A stretch of 64,000 bases of DNA, from the NCBI GenBank assembly GCA_026387665.1, contig JAPLLG010000013.1, forward strand, positions 372,001 through 436,000, in the 5' to 3' direction. A program made the position numbers and the translations under genes. Positions 301-25,238 of the stretch are shown in pieces. Numbering within the stretch: the stretch's first letter is position 1; every line of letters starts with the position of its first letter. A model generated the notes under the pieces. It did not search any database. It saw only the letters and a program-made list of their open reading frames with translations, and was not told the DNA's origin. This DNA is from Nitrospirota bacterium. GTDB taxonomy: Bacteria > Nitrospirota > Nitrospiria > Nitrospirales > Nitrospiraceae.

Positions 301-1464
301 ATGAATCGTGAATTAATTTCCGTCATCGACGAACTTGGCCGGTCAAAGGGCATCGAGAAAAGCCGCGTGATCGGCGCGATCGAAGCCGCCCTTCTCATGG
401 CTGCCAAGAAGCGTTTCGGGCAGGCTGAGAATATTCAGGTCGAGATTGACTCCAAGACCGGTGAGATTTCTGTCGTCTCGAAGAAGACCATCGTCGATAC
501 GGTCACTAATCCCAAAACCGAGGTGTCCCTTCAGGAAGCGCGCCAGTTCGACAGCGAGGCGGAGGTCGGGGATGAAATCGGGTCGCTGATCGAGATGAAC
601 GACTTGGGTCGGATTGCCGCCCAAACTGCCAAGCAGGTGATTTTCCAGAAGGTCCGTGAGGCCGAGTGGGAAGCGGTTCAAAAAGAATATTCGACGAGGC
701 AGGGCGATCTGGTCAACGGCATCATTCTCGGAATGGAGCGCCGGAACTACCTGGTGGATCTGGGTAAGACTGAGGCGGTCCTGCCGGTTCAGGAGCAGAT
801 CCCGCGGGAAACCTATCGTCGCGGCGACCGGGTCAAGGCCATGCTCCTGGAAGTACGCCGGACCCCGAAGGATGTGCAGGTTATTTTGACGCGGAGCCAT
901 CCGCAATTTGTCGCGAAGCTGTTTGAGCTGGAAGTGCCGGAAGTGCTCGAAAAGATCGTCGAGATCAAGTCCATTGTGCGGGAGCCTGGCGATCGGACGA
1001 AGATTGCCGTGACGTCGCGCGAGAAAGCGGTCGATCCGGTCGGGGCCTGCGTGGGAATCAAGGGGTCACGGGTTCAGGCGGTCGTTCGTGAGCTGCGCGG
1101 AGAGAAAATCGACATCATTACCTGGACCTCCGACCCGCGCGTCTTCATCGCGGAAGCTTTGAACCCTGCGAGTATTGAGAAGGTCGGCGTCGATGAAGAG
1201 AAGAAATCGGCGTTGGTCGTGGTGGCGGATTCCCAGCTGTCGCTCGCGATCGGGAAGAACGGCCAGAACGTGCGGTTGGCAGCCCGTCTGACCGGTTGGA
1301 AGATCGACATCATCAGCGCGACGGAATACGAAAAAGAAAAAGCCGAGCGGGATAAAGATATCAAGGCGGCGTTTGCAGAGGAAGCCGAGGCGCTGCACCA
1401 GCAACAAGAAGCCCGGGAACAGGAATTACAGGCCCGGGCAGAGTCGGAGTCGGATGCCGGGTAA
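301..1464 (+). CDS. nusA: Transcription termination/antitermination factor NusA
   Basis: NusA binds RNA polymerase and nascent RNA and controls pausing, termination and antitermination. The 387-residue protein has the N-terminal polymerase-binding domain (about 1-130), an S1 domain beginning near residue 134 ([10 protein letters not shown]) and two KH domains ([10 protein letters not shown] near 245; [13 protein letters not shown] near 316). After about residue 341 there is only a charged Lys/Glu tail, so the acidic repeats that extend the 495-residue E. coli protein are absent, as in many bacteria. ATG start 83 bp after rimP; infB follows after 23 bp, so these are co-transcribed. Confidence 0.96.
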
Positions 1465-1487
1465 AGAAGAACAGGTGTCAAATCCTC

Positions 1488-3998
1488 ATGCGCGTTTACG
1501 AATTGGCTAAGCAGCTCGGGATGGAAAATCGCGAACTCATTCCGGAATTGAAGCGGATGGGTGTCGCCGTCACATCGCACAGCAGTGCGTTGGATGACGA
1601 CGTGGTGCAAAAGGCGCTGGCGAAGCTCAGCTCGAAAGCGAAGGCTCCCGCGAAAGCGACGGGTAAGGCCACGGCGGGAGGCAAGGCTGGGGCGACCCAT
1701 GCCGCTCCGGTGGTTGAGGATGCCAAGGCCGATAAGCGCCGCATTCTGATCAAGCGCAAGCGTGACGATGAGGCTCCAGCCGAAGAGCCTGCATCCCTGC
1801 CCGCAGCGGAAACGGCCGAGACGAGTGGAGCGGTTGTCGATGCCCTTCACGTCAGCCCGCCTTCCGCGCATCCGGAAGTTGAGGCCCAGCGCGCGCCGCA
1901 TCCTGAACTGACGGTTATGTCGGAGCCGGTGCCTTTCGTCGGGACTGCGACCGTTCCGCCCCCACTGACTGCCGCCAAGCCCGCCATCGCGCCCAGCATC
2001 GATCTGACCGCCGGAAAAAAGAAAGCGCTCTCCCTTGAAGAGATTCAAGCCGAGGGTTTGAAGGAGAAGGCGAAGAAGGCTCGCAAGCCAGGCCGTACGC
2101 GGGAAGAGGAAGAGCTTCGTCTTCGCGAGGATGCCGCTCGCTGGCAGGACCTTCGCGCGATTCCATTACAGCAACGACGTGACGATCGCAGCAAGCACGT
2201 GCATCACGCCATGCCAGGGGAAGTCACGAAGCCGCGCCGGAAGGGCTTCAAGTTTGCACCCGGCATGACGGTGAAGGAGTTTGCCGAGCTGATCGGCCAA
2301 CGTCCGGCCGACATTATGCGCAAGTTGATGGATATGGGCCAGATGCTCACGTTCAATCAGACGATGAATGTGGACGCGGCCGTGATGATTGCAGAAGAGA
2401 ACGGGATCAAGCTCGATCTCTCGACGGAGAAGGTCGGGGAAGAGTTGTTGGAGTCCGTCGTGCAGACGGAGGAAGATGCCCAGCTTGAGTCGCGGCCGCC
2501 GGTCGTGACGATCATGGGCCACGTCGACCACGGCAAGACCTCGCTGCTCGATGCCATCAGGCAAACGAAGGTGGCGGAAGGCGAGGCCGGCGGAATTACG
2601 CAGCATATCGGCGCGTACACGGTGACGGTCCGCGGAAAGCAGGTCACGTTCCTGGACACGCCGGGTCACGAAGCCTTTACCGCCATGCGCGGTCGCGGCG
2701 CCAAGATTACCGATATCGTCATCCTGGTCGTGGCAGCGGACGATGGCGTGATGCCGCAAACGATTGAGGCGATCAATCATGCCAAGGCCGCATCCGTTCC
2801 GATTATTGTGGCCATCAATAAGATCGATAAGCCCGGCGCGAACGTCGATCGTGTCAAGAACGCCCTGTCCGAACATGGACTCATTTCCGAGTCCTGGGGC
2901 GGCGACACGATCATGGTTGAAGTGTCGGCCAAGGAAAAGACCGGCCTGGATACGTTGCTGGAAATGATTCTTTTGCAGTCCGAAGTGTTGGAACTCAAGG
3001 CGGACCCGCACCGGATGGCCAAGGGCGTTGTGGTGGAAGCCAAGCTGGAGCGAGGCCGTGGTCCGGTAGCGACGGTGCTGGTTCAGAGCGGGACCTTGCG
3101 CGTCGGCGATGTGTTCGTCGTTGGAGTATTTAGCGGGAAAGTGCGCGCGCTCATTACGCATACGGGAGCCAAGGTGATGGCGGCTGGTCCTTCCATCCCC
3201 GTCGAAGTGGCCGGGCTTCCCGGTGTGCCTTCTGCGGGCGATGTCTTCCAAGTTGTGAAGGATGAGCGGGTTGCGCGAGAGATCGCGGAAGATCGCGCCC
3301 ATAAACAGCGAACGACTGATTTGTCCGGGTCGGCGAAAGTCACCCTCGACGATTTGTTTGCCAAGATCAAAGAAGGCTCCGTGAAGGAGCTGGCATTGGT
3401 GATCAAGTCCGACGTTCAGGGGTCGGCTGAAGCCTTGACCGCCAGCGTCGAAAAGCTGGCGACCCCCGCAGTCAAGCTGCGCGTCATTCACAGCGGTGTG
3501 GGCGGGATCACGGAATCCGACGTGTTGCTGGCTTCCGCGTCGAACGCCATCGTGATCGGGTTCAATGTCAGGCCGGAGCCGAAGGCGTCCGCCCTGGCCG
3601 AACAGCAAGGCGTCGACATCCGCCAGTACACCATTATTTACGACGCGATGACCGAGATTAAGGCCGCGATGGAAGGGCTGCTTGAGCCGACGCTCAAGGA
3701 GCGGATTCTGGGACGGGCCGAGGTGCGGCAGGTCTTCACGGTGTCCAAGGCCGGCGTCATTGCCGGAGCCTATGTGGTGGACGGCACGATCAGCCGCGCG
3801 GCGGTCGGGGTCCGGGTGCTTCGCGACAATGTGGTGGTCTACGAAGGCAAGCTCGGGTCGTTGCGCCGCTTCAAGGACGATGTCCGCGAAGTGCAGCAGG
3901 GCTACGAATGCGGAATCAGCGTCGAGAATTTCAACGATATCAAGACCGGGGACATCATCGAAGCTTACGCGGTCGATAAGATCGCCGCAAAGCTGTAA
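1488..3998 (+). CDS. infB: Translation initiation factor IF-2
   Basis: IF-2 is the GTPase that brings initiator tRNA to the 30S subunit. The 836-residue protein has the small N-terminal IF2_N module ([16 protein letters not shown]), a long Ala/Lys/Pro/Glu-rich linker (about 50-240), a second IF2_N-like segment ([15 protein letters not shown]) and the G domain with G1 GHVDHGKTS near 344, G3 DTPGHEAF near 391 and G4 NKID near 444. Two beta-barrel domains around the IF-2 domain 3 complete the C-terminus. Length is typical. The open frames on the opposite strand here, up to 480 codons, are shadows. Confidence 0.97.
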
Positions 3999-4020
3999 GG
4001 CGTGAGTCTGCCCTGTGGGT

Positions 4021-4302
4021 ATGATCGTCGGGCTCTGTACGGTCGAATTGTTCTTTCCAGAAAGTCAGTCGCTGAAGGACAAGCGGCAGGTGCTGTTGAG
4101 TTTGAAAGATCGCTTGCGGGAGAAGTTCAACCTGTCCGTTGCCGAGGTGGATGGGCAGGACCTGTGGCAGAAGGCTGTGTTAGGGCTGGCCTGCGTGGCC
4201 AACGACGGCCGATACGTCAACCAGGTTTGTGATCAGGCGCTGAATCTGATTCGGAGCGTCCCGACGGTGAAAATCGTCCAGTCGAGAGTGGAACTGTTGT
4301 GA
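4021..4302 (+). CDS. YlxP/DUF503 family protein
   Basis: A 93-residue protein of the DUF503 (YlxP) family, recognisable from the opening MIVGLCTVELFFPES, the SLKDKRQVLLSLKDRL helix and the VAEVDGQDLWQKAVLG core. The family almost always lies between infB and rbfA, as here, and is presumed to be linked to ribosome assembly, but its biochemical role is not established. A GTG two codons upstream (4015) is an alternative start. The stop overlaps the GTG start of rbfA (GTGA), indicating translational coupling. Confidence 0.88.
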   Translation: MIVGLCTVELFFPESQSLKDKRQVLLSLKDRLREKFNLSVAEVDGQDLWQKAVLGLACVANDGRYVNQVCDQALNLIRSVPTVKIVQSRVELL

Positions 4303-4724
4303 CGGCGGCATGCCCGGTGGAGTGCACGGTGGCCAAGACGGGATATAATCGGGCCGATCGTGTCGCGGATCAAGTTCGCATGGAAGTGGCCGACATCCTC
4401 ATGCGGAAGATCAAGGATCCGCGCGTGCAGGCTGTGACCGTGACCGACGTCACGTTGACCAGCGATCTGCGGATCGCCCGCGTGTATGTGACGACCATGG
4501 GCACGAAAGAGGAAGAGAAGCAGGTCCTCGTCGGGCTGGAGCAGGCCAGCGGGTTTATTCGCGGCGAGCTCGGTCGGCGGCTTTCGCTCCGGTATCTTCC
4601 GGAAATCGTGTTTGCAATGGATGTCAGCGGGCCAAGGGGCGATCGCGTGTTGAAACTGTTGGACGAACTCCACGTGAATACGGAGGCCGAGGGCGGCTCG
4701 TCCGACGAGCAGCCGAGTTCGTAG
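4299..4724 (+). CDS. rbfA: 30S ribosome-binding factor RbfA
   Basis: RbfA is a small KH-like protein needed for 16S rRNA maturation and cold adaptation. Family signatures are RVADQVRMEVADILMRKIKDPRV and the later DLRIARVYV strand, with FIRGELGRRLSLRYLPEI in the second half. The 141-residue form from GTG 4299 carries a short non-conserved leader; the GTG at 4329 (VAKTGYNRADR) is also possible. The gene sits in the standard infB-ylxP-rbfA-truB order. Confidence 0.94.
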   Translation: MTAACPVECTVAKTGYNRADRVADQVRMEVADILMRKIKDPRVQAVTVTDVTLTSDLRIARVYVTTMGTKEEEKQVLVGLEQASGFIRGELGRRLSLRYLPEIVFAMDVSGPRGDRVLKLLDELHVNTEAEGGSSDEQPSS

Positions 4725-17272: not shown

Positions 17273-17455
17273 GGACTGGGAGGGGGCGGCGCTGGCTGGC
17301 TGGCTCAGTCTCTCTGGAGGGCTGAATGTCGAACCCCACAGAATCACGGGATAATTTGACTCGACGAGCTCCACGCCATTAGAATAGGCCCCCTGATAGG
17401 GAGGCGGGTGGTTTCTCCACGCCTCCTACGCAGGGGAACTGTCGACAGGGGATAC

Positions 17456-18652
17456 ATGGGATTAGGCGACGGATTTTATCGCATCAAACGGCTACCACCT
17501 TATGTCTTTGCCCAGGTGCAGAGTCTCAAGCTTGAGGCTCGCCAACAGGGTGAAGACATTATCGATTTCGGAATGGGCAATCCTGACCAGCCGACGCCGA
17601 GCCATATCGTCGAGAAGATGATCGAGGCGGCGCGGAAGGGAAAAAATCATCGCTACTCGGCCTCGCGCGGCATTACCAAGCTGCGGCATGCGATCGCCGG
17701 CTGGTATAAACGAAATTACGACGTCGATCTGGATCCTGAGACCGAGACGATCGTCACAATCGGCTCCAAGGAAGGGTTGGCGCATCTGGCCTTGGCCTTG
17801 ATTGGCCCAGGCGACGTCGTCTTGACGCCGACGCCGACCTATCCCATCCATATGTACAGTTTTATTATTGCGGGAGGCGAAGTTCGCGGAATCGAGTTGC
17901 GCCCGGACAGCGACTTCTTCGAAGAGCTACAGAAGGTCTATCGCCAGACTTTCCCACGACCGAAGATCTTGGTGATCAATTTTCCGCACAATCCCACCAC
18001 CGCCGTGGTGGACCTCGAATTTTTCAAGAAGATCGTTGCCTTTGCCAAAGAGCACAACGTGATCGTCATTCACGACCTGGCCTATGCGGACTTGGTGTTC
18101 GATGGCTACAAGGCGCCGAGCTTCTTGCAGGCTCCCGGCGCCAAGGATGTTGGCGTGGAGTTCTATACGCTGTCCAAGGCCTACAATATGCCGGGCTGGC
18201 GCGTGGGCTTCTGTTGCGGCAATCGCGAAGTTGTCGGCGCCTTGGCCAAGATCAAGAGTTATCTCGACTACGGAATTTTTCAGCCCTTGCAGATCGCGAG
18301 TGTCATTGCCCTCAATGGGCCGCAAGAATGCGTCAAGGAGACAGTGCTGCGTTATCAGAAGCGGCGCGACGTGTTGGTGGGCGGTCTGAATCGTATCGGG
18401 TGGCAGGTGACGAAGCCTGTGGCGACCATGTTCGTCTGGGCCAGGATTCCCTTGCCCTACCGGTCGATGGGCTCGTTGGAGTTTTCCAAGCTCCTGCTCC
18501 GCGAGGCCAAAGTCGCTGTGTCTCCCGGGATCGGATTCGGTGAAGGCGGGGACGAGTATGTGCGGTTCGGCCTGGTTGAAAACGAACATCGCACGAGGCA
18601 AGCCGTACGCGGCATTCGCAAGGCCCTGAAGCTGGAGGGGTCTGAAGAATGA
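17456..18652 (+). CDS. alaC: AlaC-type PLP aminotransferase (probable glutamate-pyruvate transaminase)
   Basis: A class I aminotransferase, 398 residues, very like the AlaC group: [47 protein letters not shown]. The PLP-binding lysine is K241 in [16 protein letters not shown]. AlaC transfers the amino group from glutamate to pyruvate. ATG 17456 follows an AGGGG site; the frame opens at GTG 17408. Its stop overlaps the start of hom by 4 bp, so it is coupled to the aspartate-family operon and could serve alanine or another amino acid there. Substrate cannot be fixed from sequence alone. Confidence 0.88.
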
Positions 18653-19962
18653 TCTCGCGCGTGGGCGTCGGCATCATCGGGCTCGGCACGGTCGGAACGG
18701 GGGTCGCGAAGATTCTCTTGGAGAATGCGGCCGTGATCAGCCGCCGTGTCGGTGTGCCGATCGAGATCGTCCGAATTGCGGACCTGGATGTGACGAAGGA
18801 TCGGGGTCTGGCCTTGCCGCCCGGTGTCCTCACGACCGATGCGAAGCAGATTCTCAACGATCCGTCGATCGACATCGTGGTCGAGTTGGTCGGGGGCTGC
18901 GATTTCGCCAAACGCATCATTCTGGAAGCCATTGCGGCAGGCAAACAGGTCGTCACCGCGAATAAGGCCCTGCTCGCATTACATGGAGAAGAAATCTTTG
19001 CCGCGGCCTCCCGCAAGGGCGTCGACATCGGTTTCGAAGCGAGCGTGGGAGGAGGAATTCCCGTCATCCAGGCGCTGCGGGAAGGACTGGCGGCCAACAC
19101 CATCCAATCCATTTACGGGATCATCAACGGGACGGCCAATTACATCCTCTCGCGCATGACCAGTGAAGGCCAGAGTTTTGACTCGGTGCTCGGCGACGCG
19201 AAGCAGGCAGGGTATGCCGAAGCGGACCCGACCTTCGATGTGGCCGGGATCGATTCGGCGCACAAACTGGCGATCCTGGTGGCGCTGGCCTATGGCACGC
19301 CGGTCAATTTTAAAGAGGTGTATACCGAGGGGATCACCCACATTACGCCGCTCGATATCGCCTATGCCAAAGAGTTCGGCTGTACGATCAAGCTGCTGGG
19401 CATTGCCAAGCTGGTGGGCAACGAAGTCGAAGCCCGCGTGCATCCCACGATGCTGCCGGCCTCGTCTCCGCTCGCTCAGGTCGAAGGGGTCTACAACGCA
19501 ATTCAATTTGTCGGCGATGCCGTGGGCGATGTGGTGCTCTATGGCAGGGGCGCCGGGTCCATGCCGACCGGCAGCGCGGTGGTCAGCGACCTCATTGCCA
19601 TTTCGCGCAATCTGCTGAAGGGCGCGGTGGGGCGAGTGCCGCCCGCTTCGTTCCAGCAGGATCAGCGTCGTCCGCTTCGTATGAGGCCGATGGAAGAGAT
19701 CAGCTCGCTCTATTACCTGCGCTTCATGGTGTTAGACCGCCCCGGTGTTTTGTCGCAGATCGCAGGGGAGCTGGGCCGGTGCGGCATCAGTATTTCGTCC
19801 GTCCTCCAACAGGGGCGACGTGACGGGCAGACGGTGCCGGTCGTGATCAAGACCCATACGGCCATGGAGCGCGATGTCCAGGCGGCATTGCGCGCGATCA
19901 ACCAGATGGCCTTTATTTCCGAGCCGACGACGCTGATTCGCGTCGAGGGCAAGGACGAGTGA
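18649..19962 (+). CDS. hom: Homoserine dehydrogenase
   Basis: Reduces aspartate semialdehyde to homoserine. The 437-residue protein has the N-terminal NAD(P)-binding [14 protein letters not shown], the catalytic domain ([45 protein letters not shown]) and a C-terminal ACT domain (about 358-437, [19 protein letters not shown]). The ACT domain is where threonine feedback usually acts. ATGA overlap with the aminotransferase gene and a 4-bp gap to thrC mark one operon. Confidence 0.97.
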
Positions 19963-19966
19963 TGTC

Positions 19967-21025
19967 ATGATTCGTTGGCGTGGCCTGATCGAAGAATATC
20001 GCAAGTTTCTCCCTGTGACCGACCGTACCCCCGTGGTGACGTTGGGGGAAGGCAATACGCCGCTCATCAGGGCGACGAGGCTGGCTCAGCAGATCGCGCC
20101 GGGCATCGATCTCTATCTCAAAATCGAAGGCGCGAATCCCACGGGATCGTTCAAGGACCGTGGCATGACGATGGCGATCTCGAAGGCTGTCGAGGCCGGC
20201 GCCAAAGCGGTCATCTGCGCGTCCACGGGGAATACCTCTGCCTCTGCCGCAGCCTATGGGGCGCGGGCCGGGCTGGCGGTCTATGTGTTGATCCCTGCCG
20301 GGAAAATTGCAATGGGCAAACTGTCCCAGGCCATGATGCACCAGGCCACGGTCATTCAGATCGAAGGCAACTTCGATCAGGCCCTGACCATCGTGAAGGA
20401 ATTGTCGGTGAGCCATCACATCGAGCTGGTCAACTCACTGAATCCCTATCGGATCGAGGGACAGAAGACCGCCGCGATGGAAGTCTGTGATCAGCTCGGC
20501 GATGCGCCGACCATCCATGTCCTGCCGGTCGGGAATGCCGGCAACATTACGGCCTATTGGAAGGGCTATCAGGAATATCGTGCGGCCAATCAATCCACGA
20601 AACTCCCGCGCATGATCGGGTTTCAGGCCTCCGGCGCGGCGCCGATCGTGCTGGGCCACATCGTGGAGAATCCGCAGACCGTGGCCACGGCGATTAGGAT
20701 CGGCAATCCGGCCAGTTGGCAAGCCGCGTTGAATGTCGTGAAGGAATCATCCGGGGCGATCGATTCGGTCACAGATGAGGAAATTTTGCAGGCCTATCGG
20801 ATGGTGGCGGCGACGGAAGGCGTTTTCTGCGAACCAGCCTCCGCTGCATCGGTGGCCGGCGTGATGAAGTTGAGCAAGCAGGGCGGGCTTCGCGAAGGCG
20901 AGACGGTGGTCTGTACCTTGACAGGCCATGGGTTGAAAGATGCCGATACGGCGATTAGTGTATCGGCTCAACCGAAAACCGTTAGAGCGACGCGGGAGGA
21001 TGTCGCTCGTCTTTTAAGGGTGTAG
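19967..21025 (+). CDS. thrC: Threonine synthase
   Basis: Converts O-phosphohomoserine to threonine with PLP. The 352-residue protein is the short bacterial type. The PLP lysine is K63 in [14 protein letters not shown], the phosphate-binding loop [17 protein letters not shown] follows, and [20 protein letters not shown] is conserved. Its substrate must be made by a homoserine-phosphorylating enzyme, for which two candidates exist in this window (21048-22286 and 62588-63205). Confidence 0.97.
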
Positions 21026-21047: not shown

Positions 21048-22286
21048 ATGAAATATGTGATTCTCCATGCCGACGGGATGGCAGACCTTCCCCGGCAGGA
21101 ATTGGGCGGACAGACTCCTCTTCAGGCGGCCTCGACTCCTCATCTCGATCGTCTCGCGAAAGAGGGAGAGCTGGGACTCTTGGCTGCGGCGCCCGAGGGC
21201 GTGCGGCGGGGGAGCGGGTTGATGGGGACGGCCCTCCTCGGATACGACCCGAAGAAACAATATCAGGGTCCCGGTCCATTCGAAGCAGCTAGCCTGGGCG
21301 TCGCCGTCGGCGAGCATGACGTGGTCTATCGTTGCACGATGGTTACGTTGCGGGCAGACGCGACCGCGGGCAAAGGTGGATTGGATGAGATTAAGAAGCT
21401 GGGGCCGCATGTGGTCATGGACGATGCGACGGCTGGCCTGATTTCGACGGAAGAGGCTCGTGAATTGATCGAGGCGATCAATGAACAGCTCGGGTCGGAG
21501 ATGATTCAGTTCTATCCAGGCTTAGGTCACCGCCATCTCATGGTGTGGGTCAACGGGAAGTCGCGCGCGGTCTGTCAGGATCCGCAGTCGCTGGTCGGTC
21601 GGCCGATCGCCGAGGCCTTGCCGACGGGCGAGGGGGCGGACCATTTGTGGAAGCTCATGGACGCGTCATTTCAGATCTTGCGCGATCATCCCCTTAATGA
21701 GGAGCGCAGTAAGGCGGGGCAGAAGCCGGCCAATGGTCTCTGGCTCTGGGGCCAGGGCCGGGCCGTGTTCTGGCCCAGCCTGGCGGAGCGTTTTAAGATG
21801 ACCGGTACGGTGGTGTCGCAGAGCGATGTCCATCGGGGGCTCGGCATGATGGCAGGGCTCGAAGCGGTGGATGGTGCGAGGTTGGCCGGCGGGGATCTGC
21901 GCACCCAAGCGGCGGTGGCGCTGGAGGACCTCAAGAAAAAAGATTTTGCCTATGTGCATGTGGAGTTGCCGGACGAGGTTGCCTATGGATCGGACGTCGC
22001 GGCCAAGGTGAAGGCGATTGAAGCGGTCGATCGCGAACTGGTCGGGCCGTTGCTTGAAGGGCTGGCCAAATCCGGTCCCTACCGCCTTGCGGCTTTCTGT
22101 GATGCGGGCAACGTGCATCAGGGTCAGGCGGCGGAGGGGCCGGGCTTCTTCGCCTATCGTGACAGTGCCGTCGATCCCTCAGCCGGAAGCGGACGAAAAT
22201 TCACCGAAGCCGATGCCCAGGCGTCGACTGTGCCTCCGCGTGATGCGACGAAGTTCGTCGTGCGATTGTTCGCAAAAGGATCCTGA
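21048..22286 (+). CDS. Archaeal-type phosphoglycerate-mutase-like protein in threonine operon (proposed homoserine kinase family), metal site degenerate
   Basis: A 412-residue member of the alkaline-phosphatase-superfamily aPGM group. Members found in threonine operons without thrB have been proposed as homoserine kinases. Recognisable parts are [51 protein letters not shown] and [10 protein letters not shown]. By eye, key metal ligands are altered. The usual DEAGH motif reads DEVAY (309-313), DHPTP reads DAGNV (352-356), the RTH histidine position is Ala near 362, and the GSD motif is GSG (55-57). Aspartates D9, D309 and D352 and S56 remain. Function is therefore uncertain: kinase, regulator or inactive homologue. 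Confidence 0.75.
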
Positions 22287-22291
22287 CGGTC

Positions 22292-23533
22292 GTGGCGCTG
22301 ATTGTTCAGAAATACGGGGGGACATCCGTCGGCACGATCGAGCGGATCCGTTGCGTGGCCGAACGAGTCGAGAAGGCTCACAAGGAGGGTCATCGGGTCG
22401 TCGTTGTTCTGTCTGCGATGAGCGGCGAAACGGATCGGTTGCTCAAGCTGGCCCACGAGGTGACATCGCTGCCGGACGATCGCGAGCTGGACATGCTCCT
22501 GTCGACGGGAGAGCGGGTGACCATTGCCTTGCTGGCGATGGCCTTGCGGGCCCGCGGGCTCGATGCCAAATCGTTCACGGGCCGTCAAGTTGGGATCATG
22601 ACCGACAGCGCCCATACGAAAGCGCGGATTACCAAGGTGGCGGCTGAGCGCATCCGTGAAGCCCTGTCCAAAGGGGTGATCCCGGTGGTGGCCGGGTTTC
22701 AAGGGATCAACGAACAGTCGGATGTCACGACGCTGGGGCGCGGAGGCTCCGATCTGACGGCGGTGGCGCTGGCGGCGGCCTTGAAGGCCGATCGCTGCAT
22801 CATCTTTACCGACGTCGATGGGGTCTATACCTCAGACCCGAACATTGTGCCGGCGGCGCGCCGCATCGACAAGATTTCCTATGAGGAAATGCTGGAGATG
22901 GCCAGTCTGGGCGCCAAAGTGCTGCAGAGCCGCTCGGTTGAATTTGCGGCGAAGTTCAATGTGCCGGTGGAGGTGAACTCCAGTTTCAAAGAAGGAAAGG
23001 GGACGCTCGTGACGCGTGAAGATGAGGATATGGAGGCGGTCGCGGTGTCGGGAGTCACCGGGGATCGGAATCAGGCCAAAATCACGATCGTGGGCGTGCC
23101 GGACAAGCCGGGCATTGCATCGAAAATTTTCGGGCCGGTGGCCAAAGCCAATATCAATGTTGATATGATCATTCAGAATATGAGCCAGTCCGGCCTGACG
23201 GATATGTCCTTTACGATTCCACGGGTGGACATCTCGAAGGCCATGCCGATCATCCAGGATGTGGCGAAGGGGATCGAGGCGAAATCGGTGGCCGTGACCG
23301 AGGCGATCGCTAAGGTCTCGTTGGTCGGCGTCGGGATGCGTTCCCATTCTGGGGTTGCGGCCAAAATGTTCGAGGTTCTGGCGCGGGAAGGCGTAAACAT
23401 CCTCATGATCAGCACGTCGGAGATCAAGATCTCCTGCGTCATCGATGAAAAGTATGTGGAGCTCGCGATGCGTTCGCTCCATACCGCGTTCGGACTGGAT
23501 CAAGCGCCGGCCGGGAGCCGACCAGCAAAGTAA
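22292..23533 (+). CDS. lysC: Aspartate kinase
   Basis: First enzyme of the aspartate family pathway, phosphorylating aspartate. The 413-residue protein starts at GTG 22292 with [13 protein letters not shown], the conserved kinase opening, and has [18 protein letters not shown] and [12 protein letters not shown] in the catalytic domain. Two C-terminal ACT domains (about 265-340 and 345-405; [13 protein letters not shown] and [19 protein letters not shown]) suggest feedback control by lysine and/or threonine. It lies 5 bp behind the aPGM-like gene. Confidence 0.97.
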
Positions 23534-23588: not shown

Positions 23589-25238
23589 ATGGCTCGAAAA
23601 ACACCTCAATCAGGATCTTCGAAAGGCAAGCAGGCCACGGCGTCAGCGCCTGGCACGACTGCTCCTGCCGTGAAGCCGGCATTGGAAATCTACGACACGA
23701 CGCTGCGCGATGGTGCCCAGGCCGAGGACGTCAGTTTCTCGGTGGAAGACAAGGTGCGGGTTGCGCAACAGCTAGACGGGCTGGGCGTGCAGTTCATCGA
23801 GGGCGGGTGGCCCGGCGCAAATCCCAAAGATATCGAGTTCTTCCGGATGATCAAGACGGTCCCGTTGCAGACGGCGACGGTCGTGGCCTTCGGCTCGACG
23901 AGAAAAGCCAGCAACGCGGTACAGAACGATCAGAATATTAAATCGCTGCTGGATGCCGAGACCTCAGTGATCACGCTCTTCGGGAAGAGCTGGTCGCTGC
24001 ACGTCACTGACGCGCTCAATATTTCTCTCGCGAAGAATCTCGAACTCATCAGCGATTCTGTGGCCCATCTCCGCTCGAAGGGCCGGAGACTGTTCTACGA
24101 TGCGGAACATTTTTTCGACGGCTATAAGACGAATCCGGACTATGCGCTGGAAACCATTCGCCAGGCGGTGGCAGCCGGCGCCGAACGGGTAATTCTTTGC
24201 GACACCAATGGCGGGACGATGCCGTGGGAAATCAAAGAGATTTGCGAGGTCGTACGGCGTGAATGCGCGGTGCCCCTGGGGATTCATGCCCACAACGATT
24301 GTGAAATGGCCGTCGCGAACTCGTTGATGGCGATCGAAACCGGCATCCTGCAAGTACAGGGGACGATCAACGGGATCGGCGAGCGGTGCGGCAACGCCAA
24401 TCTCTGTTCCATCATTCCCAATCTTGAACTGAAGATGAAACGTCCGGTGCTGGGAGATCGCTTGAGCCATCTCAAGCGGGTGTCCGGATTCGTGACCGAA
24501 ATCGCGAACCTCATGCCCAACACGCATCAGCCCTACGTGGGAGATTCGGCCTTCGCCCATAAGGGCGGGGTCCATATCCATGCGGTGCTGAAGAACCCCG
24601 CGACCTATGAACATGTGATTCCGTCGTTAGTCGGGAACCGCCAGCGGATGTTACTCTCGGATGCGGCAGGCCGGAGCGGGTTGATGGAAAAGGTCGAGGC
24701 TTACGGGATCAAATTAGACAAGGATCACGCCAAGTTACAAGAGTTGATCGATGTACTGAAGGAGCGTGAAAGCCAGGGCTACCAATTTGAGGCGGCGGAA
24801 GGCTCCTTCGAGTTGCTCATGCGGAAAGCCATGGGGACCCATAAGCCTTCCTTTCAACTTCTGGGGTTCCGGGTGATCGTCGAGAAAAAACAGGACCAGG
24901 GCGCCATGTTGTCGGAGGCCACGGTCATGGTGAAGGTCGGTGATGTGGTGGAGCATGCGGCAGCGGCAGGAGCTGGCCCGGTCAATGCGCTCGACCATGC
25001 CTTGCGGAAAGCCCTGGAAAAGTTCTATCCCCAGCTCAAAGAAGTCAAACTGCTCGATTATAAAGTGCGGGTCTTGTCGGCCGATCGCGGAACTGAATCG
25101 AAGGTTCGGGTCTTGATTGAATCGGGCGATCACAAGGATAAATGGGGCACCGTCGGCGTCTCCGAGAACATCATGGAGGCGAGCTGGCAAGCGCTGGCAG
25201 ACAGCATCGAGTACAAATTGCTCGCCAAAGACCACTGA
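23589..25238 (+). CDS. cimA: (R)-citramalate synthase
   Basis: Condenses pyruvate and acetyl-CoA to citramalate, the threonine-independent entry to isoleucine. After a non-conserved Ser/Ala/Lys-rich N-terminus (about 30 residues) the HMGL-like barrel begins with LEIYDTTLRDGAQAEDVSFSVEDK. It continues through FIEGGWPGANPKD, LCDTNGGTMPWEI and GIHAHNDCEMAVANS. The C-terminal LeuA-type regulatory domain starts near residue 420. The 549-residue length and the DTTLRDGAQ-GGWPG pattern fit the CimA/TIGR00977 type rather than isopropylmalate synthase. It lies 55 bp after lysC. Confidence 0.93.
   Translation: MARKTPQSGSSKGKQATASAPGTTAPAVKPALEIYDTTLRDGAQAEDVSFSVEDKVRVAQQLDGLGVQFIEGGWPGANPKDIEFFRMIKTVPLQTATVVAFGSTRKASNAVQNDQNIKSLLDAETSVITLFGKSWSLHVTDALNISLAKNLELISDSVAHLRSKGRRLFYDAEHFFDGYKTNPDYALETIRQAVAAGAERVILCDTNGGTMPWEIKEICEVVRRECAVPLGIHAHNDCEMAVANSLMAIETGILQVQGTINGIGERCGNANLCSIIPNLELKMKRPVLGDRLSHLKRVSGFVTEIANLMPNTHQPYVGDSAFAHKGGVHIHAVLKNPATYEHVIPSLVGNRQRMLLSDAAGRSGLMEKVEAYGIKLDKDHAKLQELIDVLKERESQGYQFEAAEGSFELLMRKAMGTHKPSFQLLGFRVIVEKKQDQGAMLSEATVMVKVGDVVEHAAAAGAGPVNALDHALRKALEKFYPQLKEVKLLDYKVRVLSADRGTESKVRVLIESGDHKDKWGTVGVSENIMEASWQALADSIEYKLLAKDH

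Follow-up and report, generated by a model that had tools for sequence, protein, structure and literature searches.

The window, here the whole analysed stretch of 64,000 nucleotides, lies in a genome (G000) of 2.64 Mb that is 99.83% complete, and it contains a run of genes in the order aminotransferase, hom, thrC, apgM-like gene, lysC and cimA (Table 1). The apgM-like gene starts 22 nt past thrC, and lysC starts 5 nt past its stop codon. This gene order recurs throughout the phylum Nitrospirota, and the slot between thrC and lysC is the same one that apgM takes in Nitrospirota with TIGR02535 proteins. A preliminary description of this DNA had stated that the threonine-operon position is kept, and the hom-thrC-apgM-lysC context is indeed present.

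Table 1. Genes of the threonine operon and sites of the apgM-like protein, with positions in the window.
Feature	Positions	Strand	Remark
Class I/II aminotransferase	17408..18652	+	first gene of the operon
hom, homoserine dehydrogenase	18649..19962	+	NF004976, 549 bits
thrC, threonine synthase	19967..21025	+	closest solved structure 2zsj; NSLNPYR kept
apgM/ThrB2-like gene, degenerate metal site	21048..22286	+	412 aa ORF
Asp9	21072..21074	+	retained ligand
Cap domain, PF10143 PhosphMutase	21156..21698	+	residues 37-217; better-conserved part
Ser56-Gly57	21213..21218	+	canonical Ser-Asp of GSD (nucleophile)
Residues 138-156	21459..21515	+	leading into family-wide FYPG
DEVAY	21972..21986	+	canonical DEAGH; Asp309 retained, His313 to Tyr
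Asp352-Ala353	22101..22106	+	canonical DH of DHPTP; His353 to Ala
Ala362	22131..22133	+	canonical His of RTHT
lysC, aspartate kinase	22292..23533	+	
cimA, citramalate synthase	23589..25238	+	TIGR00977, 766 bits

In the profile search the window protein passed the cut-off of TIGR00306, apgM (343.9 bits vs 320), and those of PF10143 (154.5 vs 21.5 bits) and PF01676 (55.0 vs 24.3 bits), and it did not reach that of TIGR02535, the proposed homoserine kinase (329.1 vs 446.3 bits). The TIGR02535 cut-off is passed by only 6 of the 149 genomes of the order, all of them in f2 (the family of the window's genus is designated here as f1, and other families of the same order as f2, f3 and f4). The AlphaFold2 model of the window protein has a pLDDT of 90.9, and its predicted fold aligns end to end with archaeal aPGM 2zkt (Z 36.9, 359 residues); across the aPGM structures 2zkt, 3kd8 and 3idd, Z is 31–37 over about 355–360 residues. 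These values point to an intact predicted fold, in line with the earlier statement that the fold motifs are kept. The archaeal aPGMs thus share the fold of the model, but the window protein lacks their metal His and the Asp of GSD, and the genomic setting differs.

TIGR02535/ThrB2 proteins, such as BT2402 of Bacteroides thetaiotaomicron, resemble the window protein in fold, length, operon context and most cap residues. The window protein differs from them in falling below the family cut-off and in having lost the metal and Ser-Asp site, whereas BT2402 keeps its metal site (PMC9765024). ThrB2 was proposed as homoserine kinase from genome context (PMC9026213). BT2402 is required for growth without threonine but gave no rescue of an E. 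coli thrB mutant, and homoserine kinase activity is unproven even for intact TIGR02535 members (PMC7311316). We found no publication on the apgM-like gene in Nitrospira in the open-access literature.

Ligand sites, selection and gene loss in the order

Seven aligned positions (D, S, D, H, D, H, H) were compared, which we take to be the metal and nucleophile ligands from established knowledge of the superfamily. The zinc sites conserved in BT2402 (PMC9765024) are a further basis for this identity. In an alignment with 32 intact Nitrospirota homologues, the canonical D57, H313, H353 and H362, invariant among these homologues, are G, Y, A and A in the window protein, and an alignment to archaeal aPGM 2zkt gives the same site losses. 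Four of the seven ligands are left, namely Asp9, Ser56, Asp309 and Asp352, and all three His are gone; the GSD motif reads GSG and the DHPTP region DAGNV. The preliminary description had listed the changes of H313 to Y and H353 to A, Ala near 362 and GSG with residue numbers that prove right, and its claim that three metal-binding His are lost is borne out by Y313, A353 and A362 facing invariant His in the intact relatives. Its account of the site was incomplete, as the retention of the other four ligands was left out, and it did not see the variation of Ser56 in the genus, the orthologues throughout the order or the lack of thrB in these genomes.

In other classes of the phylum, each of the 35 intact relatives examined has seven of seven ligands. 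Within the order, where an apgM-like relative is present in 127 of the 149 genomes, the ligand sites are eroded in each of the 82 homologues examined from f1 and f3 (30 from the window's genus, 29 from other f1 genera and 23 from f3). The mean number of ligands out of seven is 3.6 in the window's genus, 3.0 in the other f1 genera and 1.35 in f3, with a range of 0–5 across the two families. Members of f2 have 5–6 ligands; D352 is N in 6/6 of them, and 4/6 have G or T in place of Ser56. In the window's genus, Asp9 is found in 27 of 30 members (E in the other 3), Asp309 in 30 and Asp352 in 29, and position 56 is S, N, R or G, differing even between sister species. Ligand loss is therefore order-wide and graded, and no quirk of a single strain. 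Many of the compared genomes are metagenome assemblies; a sequencing error or local pseudogene is ruled out, since dozens of genomes share the state. A second, distant aPGM-like copy with 6/7 ligands, whose Asp9 position is Cys, was seen in G122 (L083, G122:C1:1135500-1144600), where the operon copy of apgM is decayed.

The apgM-like gene is held by purifying selection in the window's genus and is not decayed junk. Its dN/dS there is 0.12, compared with 0.06 for thrC and lysC, and it varies along the protein, with 0.05–0.07 in residues 61–180 and 0.17–0.20 at both ends; for intact apgM members of another genus the value is 0.09, to be read as indicative with 19 usable pairs and synonymous sites near saturation. 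Moreover, the ORFs are intact across dozens of genera. Canonical-invariant positions are retained at about 0.70 in the cap vs 0.55 in the core, and the window protein keeps the cap-side R162, H163, H214 and N217 and the nearby R220. The decayed set has ten invariant positions that vary in the intact set, although the intact set is the more uniform one (65% mean identity, compared with 40% for f1 by f3). Seven of these ten cluster in the cap within a stretch of 40 residues (p about 0.01 by shuffling), and residues 138–156 contain the majority of the new invariant positions there (R138, N145 E146 Q147, S150 E151, Q154). Taken together, the pattern suggests that the function may have shifted to the cap domain.

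On a longer evolutionary scale, however, the gene is dispensable. The genera g24 and g29 and the family f4 have an intact hom-thrC-lysC operon from which the apgM-like gene is cleanly absent, thrC and lysC being some tens of bases up to a few hundred apart; a TIGR02535 search found no copy elsewhere in the apgM-lacking genomes. In G112 the gene is a pseudogene with several stops. These losses and pseudogenisations represent at least four separate events on a ThrC+LysC tree, which has moderate support in places and is built on two genes from one operon, not a species tree. In G123 (L151, 5667-6803), a gene between thrC and lysC, restriction-like of Mrr type by eye, is similar to apgM in size but unrelated in sequence, and an apparent apgM-lysC fusion in L202 is merely a long open frame.

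Search for a homoserine kinase

When bacterial amino-acid biosynthesis was surveyed, the homoserine kinase step came second in frequency among those left unexplained (PMC7311316). Among the 149 genomes of the order, none exceeds the cut-off of thrB (TIGR00191) or of the APH-type thrB_alt (TIGR00938). G051, a member of f1, is just under the TIGR00191 cut-off and has a genuine GHMP ThrB by NF002288 (277 vs 194 bits); this genome carries a second operon, lysC-hom-thrC-thrB, on the same contig as its decayed apgM operon (L108, G051:C1:1340000-1351000). The two weak thrB matches in G000 prove to be IspE and a protein resembling heptose-7-phosphate kinase, and the nine weak GHMP matches that were checked in relatives, a part of all weak matches there, are IspE as well.

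Other kinase families were rejected as candidates. First, the APH-type kinase is AmgK-like and phylum-wide. The sole APH-family protein found in G000 is an AmgK-like N-acetylmuramate/GlcNAc kinase (L208, G000:C8, about 95444), a relative of which is fused to a nucleotidyltransferase-like domain in G161. Second, the PfkB family has no apparent order-specific member. Third, a homoserine kinase of shikimate-kinase type is proven in Desulfovibrio (DvMF_0971; PMC5764234), but this known ThrB replacement has no obvious paralogue in nearly all order members tested: with PF01202, one full-length aroK-like copy was obtained in G000 and most of 51 order members, and G051 and G097 alone had a second such copy.

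At the level of the phylum, thrB is over the cut-off in 23 of 246 genomes (14 of 14 other class members and 9 elsewhere), none of them in the window's order, and the TIGR02535 cut-off is passed in 123 genomes, nearly all outside the window's class. Here thrB and intact TIGR02535 complement each other for the most part in their distribution, and some relatives in the order are without both thrB and the apgM-like gene.

ThrC has an NSLNPYR segment close to that of solved threonine synthases and is thus expected to be of the normal kind that uses phosphohomoserine. That no known kinase was found beside such a ThrC implies either a known kinase that moonlights or a homoserine kinase of a kind not recognised so far. 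This is an argument from absence, made with profiles of known families, and a known type could still be represented by a very divergent member. The missing recognisable homoserine kinase is a more important consequence than the loss of the site alone: with no known kinase found and the active site lost, the route to the threonine precursor is called into question, and it becomes a testable question in Nitrospira and its relatives. The order represents a natural experiment, in which the active site of a proposed enzyme, and in places the whole gene, has been lost and the known substitutes were not found. From it one would predict that these environmentally important nitrifiers, along with their relatives, have an enzyme that is still undiscovered or has gone unrecognised. 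Pairs of intact and decayed members also allow a test of whether the metal site is needed in threonine synthesis.

A second threonine-synthase-like gene of 420 aa was observed in G000 (L153, G000:C2:28000-36000, positions 1272-4415), following cysM-like and MoeB/ThiF-like genes; its place may be in a sulfur amino-acid pathway of the thiocarboxylate type. In other classes, a relative of it is located directly upstream of thrC-apgM.

Interpretation of the decayed protein

Phosphoryl transfer of the alkaline-phosphatase type needs a two-metal site and a Ser nucleophile. Because the metal site is lost, this family chemistry is very unlikely, and the window protein is with high confidence not catalytic by the family's mechanism; there is a small chance of residual activity from the reduced site of three acidic residues in the window's genus. 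It is probably wrong to annotate the Nitrospira gene as either a homoserine kinase or a phosphoglycerate mutase.

We consider it probable that the protein is a pseudoenzyme derived from ThrB2, that another enzyme phosphorylates homoserine, and that the protein has a non-catalytic role in the pathway via its cap. The ancestor would have been the cofactor-independent, phosphoglycerate-mutase-like protein proposed as homoserine kinase (TIGR02535, ThrB2). In Nitrospira and the rest of its order, the two-metal site and the Ser nucleophile have been eroded, with the fold and cap kept and new conserved residues acquired. A different enzyme would make O-phosphohomoserine, which would have freed the old enzyme from catalysis. 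The leftover protein would act without catalysis in the aspartate/threonine pathway, most likely by way of a cap that binds a ligand, or a partner, be it ThrC, LysC, Hom or the missing kinase. For a role as partner or regulator specifically, we regard the chances as evenly balanced. That the order has a fifth, undescribed type of homoserine kinase, with the decayed ThrB2 as a cap-mediated non-catalytic partner or allosteric subunit of the threonine pathway, would be a tentative and rather unlikely extension. The preliminary description had suggested either a non-catalytic regulator of ThrC or hom or a different chemistry. The former, in the broader sense of a non-catalytic pathway protein, is the best supported, given the unconserved nucleophile, the purifying selection and the new conserved residues of the cap, while regulation of ThrC or Hom in particular would be a putative role; the latter, in the sense of a homoserine kinase, is disfavoured by the thrB-less lineages that have the same operon and have lost the gene.

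The protein might instead be a functionless relic on its way out, merely carried along in the operon. The independent losses and pseudogenisations in the order speak for such a state, as do the drift of the catalytic residues and a dN/dS about twice that of the neighbours, and the mild relaxation relative to intact members (0.12 vs 0.09) is also expected from slow loss. We nevertheless hold it unlikely: a dN/dS as low as that of the genus, open frames preserved in so many genera and new invariant cap positions need selection at the protein level.

It is quite improbable, moreover, that Nitrospira still uses the protein as its homoserine kinase, be it with a metal site reduced to Asp9, Asp309 and Asp352 or metal-free through the retained cap residues. 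Such a kinase would account for the failure to find known homoserine kinases in a genome as complete as G000, for the expected operon slot under purifying selection, and for the near invariance in the genus of the three acidic ligands together with the kept cap-side residues. But the relatives with the same operon, no thrB and no apgM-like gene mean that another enzyme does the job at least there, the nucleophile differs between sister species, and f3 is left with so few ligands. A present function as phosphoglycerate mutase of glycolysis, for which the gene's score above the apgM cut-off would speak, can practically be dismissed, as aPGM requires the same metal and Ser-Asp site that is lost here and the gene is locked in the threonine operon across the phylum.

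Against the preferred reading, a pseudoenzyme freed by another kinase, stand three thrB-positive genomes, G209, G149 and G165, which keep all seven ligands, so that gain of a kinase alone does not force decay. A rule that thrB gain always leads to decay of the site is ruled out by the seven of seven ligands at L192, L202 and L204. Two other thrB-positive genomes of the window's class have decayed apgM in the same operon slot, with 0/7 ligands in G216 (L198, 2926-4095) and 4/7 in G253 (L193, 4376-5596). They differ from the window's order in having an ordinary thrB elsewhere in the genome, where order-wide none was found except in G051. The decay of apgM in G216 and in G253 is independent.
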